DNA of 64,000 nt from Paenibacillus albidus (GTDB lineage Bacteria > Bacillota > Bacilli > Paenibacillales > Paenibacillaceae), in the NCBI RefSeq assembly GCF_014644435.1, contig NZ_BMKR01000008.1, positions 1 to 64,000 of the forward strand, written 5' to 3'. Shown piece after piece: positions 43,102-53,687 of the stretch. Made by a program: the position numbers and the translations under genes. The notes below the pieces were generated by a model that made no database searches, was not told where the DNA came from, and was given only the letters and a program-made list of their open reading frames with translations. Within the stretch, counting starts at the first letter, position 1; each line of letters starts with the position of its first letter.

Positions 43102-43147
43102 TCATCCTCCAGCTTGTACGCCCGTTCAAGTCCCCGGAAAACCAAAA

Positions 43148-43174
43148 ACTCCTTGCCCAAAACAGGCAAGGAGT
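43148..43174 (-). terminator. pyr operon attenuator terminator
   Basis: On the minus strand ACTCCTTGCC-TGTTTTG-GGCAAGGAGT forms a perfect ten-pair stem followed by TTTTGGTTTT. It lies between the PyrR-binding loop and the pyrR start and is the attenuator used when PyrR-UMP is bound. Confidence 0.92.
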
Positions 43175-43278
43175 GAAATCCGCAGATGAAGAAGATGAGT
43201 GGTCGCGCGCGCATAAAAAGATCATCCATATACACATACGGATACCTTCCTAAGAGTCGCGAACCTCGATTCACGTTA

Positions 43279-43299
43279 CCTTGCCAGCCTCACGGGACT
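43279..43299 (-). promoter_or_regulatory. PyrR-binding loop in the pyr leader
   Basis: The sequence AGTCCCGTGAGGCTGGCAAG matches the conserved PyrR-binding loop (UCC.G.GAGGCU...AAG). It is about 105 bases ahead of the attenuator stem. No second copy was found between pyrR and pyrB or pyrB and pyrC, so one attenuator seems to serve the whole operon. Confidence 0.88.
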
Positions 43300-43327
43300 G
43301 ATTTAAAGGCGCTATTCATTTGTTAAA

Positions 43328-48826: not shown

Positions 48827-51800
48827 TCAGCCTCCGATATGGATACCGATGGATTTTCCTCCGGCATCTACTGTTTCAAACAGATGATCTCCGTCAAAAC
48901 CAACCGACGTCACCAGCACGTTCTCGCGCAGTACATGCTCAAATGCCGTAACGGCTGCCTTCAGCTCAGCATCCACCTTCAGCGTAAGGGCAATATGTTT
49001 CTCGATCGGCAGGTCCAGACGTTTGCGGTAATCCTGCACGGCACGGACAATCTCGCGTACCCAGCCTTCCTGTTCCAGTTCCGGGGTGATCTCAGTGTTG
49101 AGTGCTACAGTAAGCCCATAACCCGAGGCAGAAGCAAAGCCCGATTTGGCCTGTTTGTCGACCAGCAGCTCATCAGCTGTAATTTGCAGCTCCTCCCCTT
49201 CCGGCGATACGACGGCAATGACACCCTCTTGTACCGCTTTGCGGGTAGCCTCACTGTCCAGCCCTTTCAGGAAACCTTGCAGGAAACCGATGTTTTTACC
49301 GTATTTTTTGCCGGCGACCTTAAGATTCATCTTCAGGGTAAAATCAACAAACCCGCTGTCGCTGTTCTCAAGCACGATGTTCTTGATGTTGATCTCATCT
49401 TTGATGATCTCCTCATAATCGGCCACATTGAAGCTGCGGTCGATCGAAACGATCAGCTCGGCAAGCGGCTGGCGGGTCTTGATGCCCGTCTCATTCCGCA
49501 CATTGCGTGCAAGCTCAACAATTTGTCTGGCACTTTCCATATCCTGCTCAAGCAGCAGATCGATCAGGCTCTCATCGGCAACCGGATAATCGGCCAAATG
49601 CACACTTTCCCCGCCGCCGAGATTCGTGTAGATATCCTCGGACAACATCGGTGTAAATGGAGCCATCACCCGTGCCGTCTTCAGCAGCACTTCGGTCAAG
49701 GTACGATAAGCATCGAGCTTATCTTCGCCAAGGCCGCTGCCCCAGAACCGGTCGCGGGAACGGCGGATATACCAGTTGCTCAGCTCATCCACGAAGTTCT
49801 CAATTGCTTTGGATGAATTAACGAAGTCATTCACTGCCAGCCCTTTATCCACCACCAGGATCACACTGTTCAGACGGGACAGAATCCAGCGGTCCAGCTT
49901 GTGATCGGACAACTTGAACGGATGGTCGGCCGGATCGTAACCGTCGATACCCGCATACAGCGTCAGGAACGCATGCGTGTTGACCAGTGTATCTACAACC
50001 TTGGATTTGGTCTCCCCTACCAGTCCGCGCGAGAACCGTTTGTTGTTCCATGGTGCACTGTCGGCCAGAATCGCCCAACGGAAGGCGTCCGTGCCATATT
50101 CATTCATGATCTCCCAAGGGTCAATAACATTACCTTTGGATTTGGACATCTTCTGGCCATTCTCATCAAGGATGTGGCCGTGGGCAATGACCGCTTTGTA
50201 AGGCGCTACGCCCTTGAACAAGGTCGATACCGCAAGCAGGCTGTAGAACCAGCCGCGGGTCTGGTCAATCCCTTCGCAGATCATATCTGCAGGAAATTGG
50301 TCGTTCAGCTTATCTTCATTCTCAAACGGATAGTGGCTTTGGGCAAAAGGCATAGAGCCGCTGTCGAACCAGACGTCGATCACTTCGGACGTACGGACCA
50401 TTTCCGCGCCTTCGCTGAACGGACTGCGCAGCTTGATGGCATCCACAAACGGCTTGTGCAGCTCAATATCCTCAGGCACATCGCCTATGGCCATCGCTCT
50501 CAGTTCGGCAATGCTGTGCGGGGCAAATTCCTTGCCTGTCGCCTGGCAGACCCACACATTCAGCGGCGTTCCCCAGTAGCGGTTACGGCTGATATTCCAG
50601 TCCACCAGCTCCTCCAGGAACTTGCCAAACCGTCCCGAACGCACATGCTCCGGATACCAGTCCACGCTGTTGTTGTTGGCAATCAGCTGATCCTTGATCT
50701 TCGTAGTATTGATGAACCAGCTGTCTGTCGCGTAATACAGCAGCGGCGTATCGCAGCGCCAGCAGAACGGATAGCTGTGCTCATATTTTTCTTTGCTGAA
50801 CAGCAGGCCCTTCTCGGACAAGGCCTTGATGATATCCAGGTCACAGTCCTTCACAAAACGTCCGGCAAAATCAGTCACAACTTCCGTATATTTACCGGAG
50901 CCGTCCACCACATTCACGAAGCTGATGCCATTCTCGCGGCAGGTCTTGTAGTCGTCCTCGCCATGTGCCGGTGCCATGTGCACGATCCCGGTTCCGCTGG
51001 CATCGGTGACAAAAGCTGCGCCCACGATAACATTGCTCTTCTCCGCCTCGATATAACCAAATGGCGGTGCATAGGTTTTGCCGATGAACTCGGCACCTTT
51101 GTGCGTTGACAGCACGGTGTGCTCGCCTTTTACAACCTCTTCGACCAGGTTTTTGGCCAGAATATAGATTTCCCCGTCCTGCTGCACCCGTACATAATCC
51201 ATGTCGGGATTCATCGCCAGCGCCATATGCGCCGGCAGTGTCCATGGGGTCGTCGTCCAGGCCAACACATATTCGCCGCTGTCATCCAGCTTGAATTTTG
51301 CTGTCGCACTGAGATCCTTTACCGTCTTGTATCCCTGCGCCACCTCATGCGAGCTCAAGGTCGTCTGGCAGCTCGGGCAATAAGGGCTGACGCGGTGACC
51401 ACGGTAGAGCAGGCCTTGTTCATGTACTGTCGCCAGGATATTCCATACACTCTCGATATACGTATTATCCAAAGTTACGTACGGATGATCCAAATCGGTC
51501 CAATACCCGATGGCTTCCGTGAACTCACGCCACTGCTTCTCATAGCCGAATACACTGTCCTTGCATTCCTGAATGAACTTCTCTACGCCATATTCTTCAA
51601 TATCCTGTTTGCCGGAGATGCCAAGCTTCTTCTGCACGCCAAGCTCCACCGGCAGGCCGTGTGTATCCCAGCCCGCTTTACGCACGACGCGGTACCCCTT
51701 CATCGTCTGGTAACGGCCGATAAAGTCCTTGATTACGCGGCCCAGCACGTGCCCGATATGCGGCGCACCGTTCGCCGTCGGAGGTCCTTCATAGAACACG

Positions 51801-51919
51801 TAGTTAGGACGGCCCTCGCGGTTCTCCATGGATTTGCGGAACGTATCTTCGTCGCTCCATTTCTTCAAGATACGGACATCTCTGGCCCGTGCTTTTTCTC
51901 TGACATCTACTTTTTGCAT
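48827..51919 (-). CDS. ileS: Isoleucyl-tRNA synthetase, long (type 2, eukaryote-like) form
   Basis: A 1030-residue enzyme charging tRNA-Ile. HIGH motif in 'ANGAPHIGHVLGR' (about residue 50) and KMSKS in 'ENGQKMSKSKGNVIDP' (about 598). The stretch 'PNYVFYEGPPTANGAPHIGH' and 'RYQTMKGYRVVRKAGWDTHG' are characteristic of type 2 IleRS rather than the shorter type 1 enzyme of B. subtilis. Type 2 enzymes are known for low sensitivity to mupirocin. ATG 51919 has AGGA about ten bases upstream; frames extending to 52021 run into repeat DNA. Expression should be controlled by the T-box at 52831-53120. Confidence 0.95.
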   Translation of the reverse strand: MQKVDVREKARARDVRILKKWSDEDTFRKSMENREGRPNYVFYEGPPTANGAPHIGHVLGRVIKDFIGRYQTMKGYRVVRKAGWDTHGLPVELGVQKKLGISGKQDIEEYGVEKFIQECKDSVFGYEKQWREFTEAIGYWTDLDHPYVTLDNTYIESVWNILATVHEQGLLYRGHRVSPYCPSCQTTLSSHEVAQGYKTVKDLSATAKFKLDDSGEYVLAWTTTPWTLPAHMALAMNPDMDYVRVQQDGEIYILAKNLVEEVVKGEHTVLSTHKGAEFIGKTYAPPFGYIEAEKSNVIVGAAFVTDASGTGIVHMAPAHGEDDYKTCRENGISFVNVVDGSGKYTEVVTDFAGRFVKDCDLDIIKALSEKGLLFSKEKYEHSYPFCWRCDTPLLYYATDSWFINTTKIKDQLIANNNSVDWYPEHVRSGRFGKFLEELVDWNISRNRYWGTPLNVWVCQATGKEFAPHSIAELRAMAIGDVPEDIELHKPFVDAIKLRSPFSEGAEMVRTSEVIDVWFDSGSMPFAQSHYPFENEDKLNDQFPADMICEGIDQTRGWFYSLLAVSTLFKGVAPYKAVIAHGHILDENGQKMSKSKGNVIDPWEIMNEYGTDAFRWAILADSAPWNNKRFSRGLVGETKSKVVDTLVNTHAFLTLYAGIDGYDPADHPFKLSDHKLDRWILSRLNSVILVVDKGLAVNDFVNSSKAIENFVDELSNWYIRRSRDRFWGSGLGEDKLDAYRTLTEVLLKTARVMAPFTPMLSEDIYTNLGGGESVHLADYPVADESLIDLLLEQDMESARQIVELARNVRNETGIKTRQPLAELIVSIDRSFNVADYEEIIKDEINIKNIVLENSDSGFVDFTLKMNLKVAGKKYGKNIGFLQGFLKGLDSEATRKAVQEGVIAVVSPEGEELQITADELLVDKQAKSGFASASGYGLTVALNTEITPELEQEGWVREIVRAVQDYRKRLDLPIEKHIALTLKVDAELKAAVTAFEHVLRENVLVTSVGFDGDHLFETVDAGGKSIGIHIGG

Positions 51920-51959
51920 AAGGGTCAATCCTTTCGTGGTTTTGTCTATAAACCTTTTT

Positions 51960-52822
51960 CGATCCCTCCCAAACCCTCCCTTAGCCAAGGGAGGGCCCCA
52001 AGGGTTCCACCCTCTGGACACCCGGAAGGAAACCAGAGGGTGGAGTTACTGTGGCAGACGGGGAAAAATTACGTTGGCTTATCCCTCGCTTGTCGCCGCT
52101 GCCGCGGCCCGCTTTACCTAAGGCCCCCGAGCCCGCGATCCTCCGCAGGAGGCAGCACTGGGCTCGGGGGGCCTCCCCGCGCGACTGGCGCAGCGTCGCG
52201 GGGCCGCGATCCTCCGCAGGAGGCAGCCTGGGCTCGGGGAGCCTCCCCGCGCGACTGGCGCAGCGTCGCGGGCCCTTGCCCCGGCACCCGAGCCGCGATC
52301 CTCCGCAGGAGGCAGCCTGGGCTCGGTAGGCCTGCCGCGCCATGCACAGCTGGCGCAGAGCCTTTCCCCGGCACCCGGGCCCGCGATCCTCCGCAGGAGG
52401 CAGCCTGGGCTCGGGGAGCCTCCCCGCGCGACTGGCGCAGCGTCGCGGGCCCTTGCCCCGGCACCCGAGCCGCGATCCTCCGCAGGAGGCAGCCTGGGCT
52501 CGGGGAGCCTGCCCGTGCGACTGGCACAGCGTCGCGGGGCCCTTGCCCCGGCACCCGAGCCGCGATCCTCCGCAGGAGGCAGCCTGTGCTCGGGAAGCCT
52601 CCCCGCGACTGGCACAGCGTCGCGGGGCCCTTGGCGCCTTGCGGGCGCAGTTAAGGCCGCGCAGGCGAACCCGCAGGGGAGCCTAAGAACGGCCGCTCCC
52701 CCCCGGCAACCTAATCCTTCCCCTTCCGCCAAAGTCACTCCATCCCCGGAGCACTGCTTGCGGGTGTCCAGAGGGCCGCGGCCCTTGGGGTCCCCCTTGG
52801 AAAGGGGGATTTAGGGGGATCG
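51960..52822. repeat. Inverted-repeat-bounded element in the ileS leader
   Basis: The stretch 51960-52080 and the reverse complement of 52705-52822 are clearly related along about 120 bases: both begin CGATCC(C), continue through a hairpin, then share CCCCAAGGG, CCCTCTGGACACCCG, TGGAGT.ACT.TGGC.GA.GGGGAA and a TTA.GTTG end. Each arm holds its own palindrome (CCCTCCCTTAGCCAAGGGAGGG split by a short loop; CCCCCTTTCCAAGGGGG). Between them lie GC-rich tandem repeats. No credible protein is encoded; frames open in several phases only because stops are rare in GC-rich DNA. Confidence 0.75.
52135..52634. repeat. Six GC-rich tandem repeats of about 89 bp
   Basis: Copies beginning GCGATCCTCCGCAGGAGG start at 52135, 52206, 52295, 52383, 52472 and 52562, giving steps of 71, 89, 88, 89 and 90 bases. 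The first lacks the CCCTTGCCCCGGCACCCGAG part. Each unit has two palindromes, CCTCC-GCA-GGAGG and CGGGGAG-C-CTCCCCG. Copies 3 and 6 differ most. The array lies wholly between the ileS T-box and the ileS start. Confidence 0.9.
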
Positions 52823-52830
52823 CCCACACC

Positions 52831-53120
52831 AAAACGAGCGCCATCCCGCCCCCAAAGGGGCGAGACAGCGCTCGCGATACCACCCTAATTCTGCACATGA
52901 GCACATCCTTAAGGGGAGTGTATTCAGCACAATCTCAGTTCCGCGTAAGAATTGACACGCGGGTCCGGTGTAACGTCCGGCGGACGGCTCAGGCCTACGC
53001 ACGATTCACGCTTCAGCTTGGCTTCTTGGGGAAGATATTCCGGCAGGGTGCGAACAATCGGCTCTCAGCAATCGCCGACTCTCTGGAGAACGTTAACCTT
53101 GTCGTACTTGTCCCGTCATC
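52831..53120 (-). ncRNA. Isoleucine T-box leader
   Basis: Read on the minus strand: a Stem I region with the conserved TGCTGAGAG (about 53068-53060), a specifier loop with AUC (53036-53034, in GGAATATCTTCC), then the T-box TTAGGGTGGTATCGCGAG (about 52888-52871). Last comes a terminator CGAGCGC...GCGCTCG with inner GC stem and TTTT (52874-52831). Uncharged tRNA-Ile should switch it to the antiterminated state. It is about 910 bases from the ileS start, unusually far. Confidence 0.92.
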
Positions 53121-53153
53121 GAATACATATGAACATGATAAAGATATGATCTA

Positions 53154-53182
53154 GTTATAGCCTCTTTAAGCTGAAATGTCAA
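53154..53182 (-). promoter_or_regulatory. SigA promoter of the ileS T-box transcript
   Basis: TTGACA (53182-53177) and TATAAC (53159-53154) with a 17-base spacer, reading leftward just ahead of the T-box. Confidence 0.88.
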
Positions 53183-53201
53183 CCATTTGGCAAAAGGCGG
53201 A

Positions 53202-53687
53202 TCAGAATGCGTTCTCGGTAATCTCACGGCTCTCCAGCGCATTCCAGTCATCCTGAGACAGCAGTTCAAGCTGTGCTTCAAGAAGTGTCCGGAAGCGGGT
53301 ACGGTAAATGGAAGCTTGCTTCCGCAGCTCTTCGGTTTCGATCGAGATTTTACGCGATTTGGACAAGGCTTCGTTGATAATCCGGTCTGCATTTTTCTCT
53401 GCTTCCTTGAGGATCAGCTGGGATTCCTTCTTGGAATTGTTTTTCAATTCATCCGCTGCTTCCTGAGCGACGATAATGGTCTTTGATAAAGTCTCTTCAA
53501 TGTTGACAAAATGATCCAGACGCTCTTGTATGGACAGAAGCTGATTCTGCAGCTCCTTGTTCTCGCGGATCACACTTTCATAATCCTTGATGACCTGGTC
53601 CAGAAATTCATTGACCTCATCTTCATCATAACCGCGGAGCCGCCGGGCGAACTCCTTGTTATGTATATCGAGCGGCGTTAATGGCAT
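53202..53687 (-). CDS. divIVA: Cell-division/polarity protein DivIVA
   Basis: A 161-residue coiled-coil protein that binds curved membrane at septa and poles. The N-terminal 'LTPLDIHNKEFARRLRGYDEDEVNEFLDQVIKDYE' membrane-binding domain and long coiled coil (35-140) are typical. AGGAGG lies eight bases before ATG 53687. A hairpin (GTGCC-CCCC-GGCAC, 53721-53734) and a second AAGGAGG lie upstream. The 203-base gap to ylmH holds no other gene. Confidence 0.94.
   Translation of the reverse strand: MPLTPLDIHNKEFARRLRGYDEDEVNEFLDQVIKDYESVIRENKELQNQLLSIQERLDHFVNIEETLSKTIIVAQEAADELKNNSKKESQLILKEAEKNADRIINEALSKSRKISIETEELRKQASIYRTRFRTLLEAQLELLSQDDWNALESREITENAF

Follow-up and report, generated by a model that had tools for sequence, protein, structure and literature searches.

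A probable inverted pair of copies of a once-mobile Paenibacillales repeat between the T-box terminator and ileS of Paenibacillus albidus

In Paenibacillus albidus, about 0.86 kb with inverted arms and GC-rich repeats separates the terminator of a T-box from the isoleucyl-tRNA synthetase gene ileS, as a sequence-only reading of the stretch analyzed here (the window; 64,000 nucleotides of contig NZ_BMKR01000008.1) had described. This segment probably consists of two copies, in inverted orientation, of a non-coding, once-mobile repeat of Paenibacillales, and the pair became fixed long ago at this site. The arms are related to a dispersed repeat family, which has multiplied in one genome, is missing from the same site in some relatives, and occupies sites that several species have in common.

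The ileS leader and its insert

The features of the leader are listed below in window coordinates.

48827–51919, minus strand: ileS, isoleucine--tRNA ligase (open reading frame list and TIGR00392, 958 bits)
51959–52121, plus strand: right copy, 5′ domain the opposite way round, model positions 1–175 (nhmmer, model of 24 copies from genome G016)
51965–52023, plus strand: right end unit (end-unit HMM match)
52081–52120, plus strand: subterminal stem between CGCTT boxes, with short flanks (pattern search; pair counts over 34 sequences)
52133–52633, minus strand: array of six GC-rich hairpin units (repeat finding and unit folding)
52661–52821, minus strand: left copy, 5′ domain read away from the T-box, model positions 3–145 (nhmmer, same 24-copy G016 model)
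52756–52824, minus strand: left end unit, two hairpins (covariance model R1, 86.5 bits)
52834–52875, minus strand: T-box terminator hairpin, 19 pairs, T-rich tail (terminator scan)
52853–53128, minus strand: T-box leader of ileS (Rfam RF00230, 83.8 bits, E 2.7e-18, below the gathering score of 93)

Read along the minus strand, the T-box (52853–53128) is followed by the terminator hairpin (52875–52834), the GC-rich insert of about 860 bp, and ileS from 51919. RF00230 was matched in all six related ileS leaders scanned, two of which exceed the gathering score (96.2 and 99.8 bits), and the leader upstream of ileS has both the covariance-model match and the terminator expected of a T-box. The host leader is an ordinary one; the insert comes after the terminator and does not belong to the T-box. 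The terminator scan returned two terminator-like sites, where shuffled sequences average 1.4, and a scan of 51850–53350 with a simple sigma-70 consensus gave no promoter. The ileS protein passes the TIGR00392 cut-off; the two highest NCBIfam scores of the protein encoded at 48827–51919 belong to the mupirocin-resistance models MupB (1190 bits) and MupA (1175 bits), both far under the cut-off of 1900 for those models. A PyrR binding site lies elsewhere in the window (43140–43313, minus strand). In the available part of one text on T-boxes, these are named for serA and valS, and ileS does not occur (PMC5670726).

The inverted orientation of the arms was borne out by whole-genome blastn, in which 51960–52076 matched 52707–52822 at 74% identity over 117 bp (E 1.8e-9); the ungapped core of the arms is 51 nt and 73% complementary. 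A start nine bases past the T-box terminator, as first read, is about right because the outer CGATC of the left arm lies at 52822–52818. GC content is 0.74–0.75 within the insert versus 0.47–0.58 in its surroundings. The six GC-rich repeats of about 89 bp that had been described are present as six units with a 22-nt core (sense starts 52583, 52493, 52404, 52316, 52227, and 52156) spaced by 90, 89, 88, and 89 nt, but the last spacing is shorter, at 71. Tandem Repeats Finder scored this array at 672–706 and the next-best array of the 64-kb window at 103. As for the palindromes proposed for each unit, the units fold as hairpins and the second palindrome (CCCGCGAC..GTCGCGCGGG) can be read in the sequence; the fifth unit is truncated, and its fold differs from those of the other units.

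Both arms match a model built from the copies of G016 alone: the right copy with 70.5 bits (E 7.9e-23 on a 1.2-kb piece; E 1.9e-20 over all leaders) and the left copy with 45.4 bits (E 4e-15 on a 1.2-kb piece; E 9.3e-13 over all leaders). On these alignments, the arms read as two copies of one family lying tail to tail. The CGCTT-boxed stem of the right copy was absent by pattern search from the left copy (52661–52821).

Distribution of the repeat family

A whole-genome search for the arms, the check that the sequence-only reading had proposed, revealed a dispersed family. With an 892-bp query against all 7.67 Mb, the full element was found at ileS only, and end pieces were found at seven other sites. 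Four of these seven single ends are followed by a tandem array that is specific to the locus and three have no array. The arrays lie beside era (96-bp units, 9.1 copies), purF (94-bp units, 7.8 copies), rpsP (56-bp units, 3.7 copies), and uvrA (36-bp units, 3.7 copies). Gene identities were checked against NCBIfam at one locus each for era, hisF, dapF, murD, uvrA, rpsP, nrdA, gapA, pgk, and argH, and likewise for nrdB, agmatinase, and ileS; other neighbors we take to be purF, znuB, and rsmI from their translated gene ends.

An end-unit model built from 33 sequences found the unit in 96 of 100 genomes of the genus, 95 of which carry 1–12 copies, G016 being the exception. Across the order Paenibacillales (up to 13 candidates scored per genome), it was present in 241 of 392 genomes and in 17 of the 49 genera sampled. 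When an exact pattern was run against one genome each of 84,980 species, all but one of the 70 stretches recovered were titled Paenibacillus, and the sole exception, Bacillus sp. FJAT-27264, is G064 of the genus set. A plasmid search returned two Paenibacillus records, which carry end pieces only. An exact 17-base pattern (eight genomes) was discarded because its backward control matched almost equally often, as a near-symmetric pattern would.

The family is thus non-coding, dispersed, and multi-copy, as are miniature inverted-repeat transposable elements (MITEs). In other species, it was found between nrdA and nrdB, between gapA and pgk, and before argH. At least 47 of 62 genomes (the best 62 of 97 era matches) have an end unit within 600 bp upstream of era. 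Among 40 chosen genomes, the era site is occupied in six, including four that are empty at ileS, and it is empty in G001 and G064, the nearest relatives of the window's genome in the tree described below; the occupancy pattern at era is unlike that at ileS.

Occupied and empty ileS leaders

The gene ileS was located in 98 of the 100 genus genomes, including that of the window, and upstream DNA was taken from the other 97. The T-box motif is present in 93 of the 98 leaders; in the remaining five (L068, L084, L086, L101, and L109), the draft contig breaks off within the leader before the motif is reached. Among the 93, the distance from T-box to ATG is below 140 nt in 21, 144–148 nt in three, 295 nt in one, and above 300 nt in 68. 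With G031 and G032 left out for their different, unrelated insert, 91 leaders could be scored. The family is present in 67 of them (left end in 66, right end in 52, both in 51), whereas none of the 24 short leaders has a match, so that the comparison with relatives first suggested for this locus does reveal empty sites. In 62 of 66 leaders, the left end lies 57–90 nt downstream of the T-box motif; the right end is missing from 15 of the 67, and the distance from T-box to ATG in filled leaders ranges from 295 to 1396 nt, almost five-fold. The arrays differ among the species whose leaders were read. The leader of G088 has an apparent scar, and those of G015 and G072 retain a short palindrome resembling the outer part of an end.

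Several other sequences were seen at this site. In G032 and G031 (L130 and L133), the unrelated insert has GAGTTCAAAAAG-type inverted ends and occupies the same place in the leader, and G051 has a short remnant. A second palindrome of about 45 nt (CCTAAAAGTTT..) lies within the right end unit of G002, G011, G071, and G090 (L114, L115, L095, and L100), and one similar to it lies within the ileS T-box of G015 and G072 (L107 and L108).

In a midpoint-rooted FastTree phylogeny of 82 genomes (ylmH, divIVA, and the start of ileS), filled leaders fall in two major clades, one clade is without the family, and further empty leaders are scattered. Judged by eye, this pattern calls for either one gain with about five losses or two gains with four losses, besides partial losses; independent insertion in every species is unlikely.

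Movement of the family

Movement is recorded in G016, in which 67 end-unit matches were found by a deeper search and at least 50 in the genus-wide run. Among 30 loci read, 24 belong to one subfamily with a shared 5′ domain (pairwise 0.81–0.95, mean 0.87); the six others were left out of the 24-copy analyses. The outer flanks of the 24 copies are unrelated (local scores reach at most 27 of a possible 390). Because one subfamily is found at 24 of 30 loci with unrelated outer flanks, the family has moved, and the pairwise mean indicates that this spread was not very recent. The array unit of the subfamily is mostly 42 bp, with 0–9 occurrences by pattern. A 5′ domain and an array characterize the G016 copies as well as four of the seven single copies in the window's genome, and the tail is variable. 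Two G016 loci, L252 and L255, have a downstream flank in common and different outer flanks.

A further dispersed repeat, starting GTTACTACTTAGG, lies behind several G016 copies (among L250–L268). Outside some ends, partial outer termini (CGATCCCTCCCAAACC.., ATCCCCCTAAATC.., and AAGATCCTTT) are stacked in tandem (L266, L261, L003 at 1438–1500, L070, and L071) and look as if new copies had landed on old termini. An IS200/IS605-type partner was sought as well: 20 Y1-transposase (PF01797) loci in four genomes have no end unit within their flanks of up to 1.5 kb, and none of these loci adjoins an end.

By eye, the 24 G016 copies show no target-site duplication, their 3′ terminus being undefined, and no second end or clear 3′ terminus. 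The insert at ileS could be imagined as a single MITE whose terminal inverted repeats are long and enclose a minisatellite, and which a transposase that recognizes both ends inserted as a whole. Such an element would explain why inverted arms flank an array and why 51 of the 67 filled leaders have both ends, and BrickBuilt of Porphyromonas gingivalis is a MITE of this kind according to the accessible text of PMC4596501. This origin is nevertheless unlikely. The single copies read elsewhere have one end only, with no terminal inverted repeats at both ends; the right end is lacking from 15 filled leaders; no target duplication was seen; and the two arms correspond to a single 5′ domain in opposite orientations, though a long inverted repeat would do so too. 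The earlier proposal of a non-autonomous mobile element is supported by dispersal, multiplication in G016, and empty sites in relatives, but the segment does not look like one element bounded by terminal inverted repeats. The ileS segment reads instead as an inverted pair of one-ended copies.

Structure of the ends and folding of the leader

In the first hairpin of the end unit, four pairs show compensatory changes on both sides. By pattern search, 50 of 217 ends are followed by a stem enclosed by CGCTT boxes, against 1.25 expected from shuffles; no ileS left arm is among them. In 45 of these cases, the distance of the stem from the outer end is 111–124 nt. In 34 aligned sequences, including the right arm of the window, 95.5% of the cells of this subterminal stem are paired, five of six pairs change on both sides (25 cells versus a shuffle mean of 7.8), and covariation is 0.344, compared with at most 0.220 when the stem is slid; the stem was drawn from the very 34 sequences used to test it. 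One of five measures, the count of further pair types, is no higher than in shuffles (7 versus 7.7). The invariance of the CGCTT boxes in this alignment is no evidence because the boxes were the search criterion. Several TTATCCC-type sequences are one column off and were counted as unpaired or as gaps, and a spurious motif match, L004, was removed before alignment. Since either strand can form the stems, roles in DNA and RNA are not separated. The extragenic palindromes and the inverted pair at ileS are features of REP/BIME sequences.

The whole insert of the window folds at z −6.9 (20 shuffles) with its arms paired. In 120-nt folding windows, filled leaders have a mean z of −0.70 with 17% below −2 (628 windows, 66 genomes), and a coding control has a mean of −0.26 with 6% below −2 (280 windows, 40 genomes); the windowed signal is thus weak, only slightly better than shuffles and coding sequence. 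A strand bias was not seen, the sense strand being stabler in 39 of 66 genomes. A selected stem between the arms was not supported: a genome's left arm scores 67.3 on average with its own right arm versus 64.8 with those of other genomes (median rank 25 of 66), and the arms within one genome do not co-evolve. Leaders shorter than 380 nt were left out of the windowed folding and the arm comparison. Rfam 15 returned no convincing family besides the T-box for the window piece and 15 related loci, the sub-gathering matches to mir-378, Ms_IGR-5, and Ysr251 being at chance level.

These results bear on whether the insert is a conserved regulatory RNA, in which the arms of the read-through transcript would pair and control translation or decay of ileS mRNA upon a signal. 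That the insert keeps its place behind the T-box in two major clades, that the arms pair in the predicted fold of the window insert, and that the family has a covarying stem are all in keeping with such a switch. It is nonetheless very improbable. The nearly five-fold variation in spacing, the right end missing from 15 of 67 leaders, the lack of arm co-evolution, and the weak folding signal in windows argue against a defined switch, as do arrays that differ between the species read, absence of the family from 24 of 91 leaders, the presence of the same family beside unrelated genes, and the lack of a real-looking Rfam family other than the T-box.

Relation to known elements

The nearest described kind of element is a MITE with an internal minisatellite, and the comparison here extends to what the available text of PMC4596501 gives. 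Like the present family, BrickBuilt and MITE464/PgRS of P. gingivalis are non-coding and intergenic; they number some 10–20 copies and hold tandem repeats between flanking segments, an arrangement that copies of the present family may share, and only 4 of 19 BrickBuilt copies keep both ends. BrickBuilt has one 23-nt repeat throughout, whereas the array unit of the present family differs by locus. BrickBuilt has short inverted ends like those of IS5-family elements, whereas the end described here is a 66-bp hairpin pair, often with the covarying CGCTT-boxed stem, for which no inverted terminus or IS partner was found. The range of BrickBuilt is given as P. gingivalis and P. gulae, in contrast to spread over an order. 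The present family differs in its apparently one-ended anatomy, its covarying stem, its private arrays, and its distribution (PMC4596501).

As with REP/BIME sequences and REPINs, which are linked to TnpA-REP (RAYT) transposases, hairpin repeats lie near gene ends, inside operons, and in inverted pairs, and a role of REP/BIME in mRNA stability has been proposed, in the portions of the sources available (PMC12306157, PMC3733652). REPs measure 20–40 bp in the accessible text (PMC3733652), whereas the present family has a 66-bp end within longer elements and usually 1–12 copies per genome; unlike RAYT-linked REPs, no end adjoins a Y1 transposase at the 20 loci checked. The bcr1 repeat of the Bacillus cereus group, to go by a title in PMC2267715, is likewise a mobile-like repeat of Bacilli. 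Among the literature matches listed, no report of the present family was found, and the word Paenibacillus does not occur in the available main text of PMC12306157, PMC3733652, PMC10969869, or PMC2267715.

Proposed origin and effect on ileS

In the proposed account, a copy would begin, near a terminator or the edge of a gene, with its 66-bp hairpin end unit (CGATCCCCCTAAATCCCCC..GCCCTCTGGACACCCG); in many cases the subterminal stem with its two CGCTT boxes would come next, some 111–124 nt inside, and in many cases a tandem array after that. The family would have moved by its hairpin 5′ domain, presumably through an enzyme acting in trans on the hairpins, and would have landed near gene edges, where harm is small. 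A copy would then stay put while its array turns over, and arrays may grow through slippage or unequal recombination; each locus would have its own minisatellite because of this local turnover.

At ileS, the pair would be transcribed only upon read-through of the T-box, barring an unseen promoter, and the pair would fold very stably ahead of the ribosome-binding site. By analogy with intercistronic REP/BIME, the pair may at most tune the stability or timing of the ileS message; a REP-like effect on stability is plausible, and any regulatory effect is inferred. The fixed place in the leader speaks for tolerance or use.

Tolerance alone is a possibility of some weight, though not the favored one. 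The pair would then be a dead insertion, borne because it is shielded by the T-box terminator and leaves the ribosome-binding site free; this view does not conflict with an ancient inverted pair and denies only the regulatory step. An unrelated insert occupies the same place in G031 and G032, losses have happened (the scar of G088 and the remnants of G015 and G072), and the windowed folding signal is weak. Against neutrality stand retention over two major clades and at era and the fact that the end hairpin and the subterminal stem show compensatory changes, though these changes may date from mobile life. A bolder proposal, for which the case is doubtful, extends the preferred reading to an order-wide mobile structured element in which one hairpin end with its CGCTT-boxed stem suffices for movement, gene edges in core operons are targeted, each copy grows a private minisatellite where it lands, and the ileS pair has been adopted as a second layer behind the T-box that acts only upon read-through.

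Implications

The repeat family fills gaps beside core genes in Paenibacillales (ileS, era, hisF, nrdA/nrdB, gapA/pgk, argH, and uvrA), and it may explain why contigs of draft genomes break, five assemblies ending within the ileS leader. The genome of G016, where the family multiplied, offers a place to study its movement. Because natural filled and empty ileS leaders exist, what a large GC-rich insert does when it follows a T-box is directly measurable.
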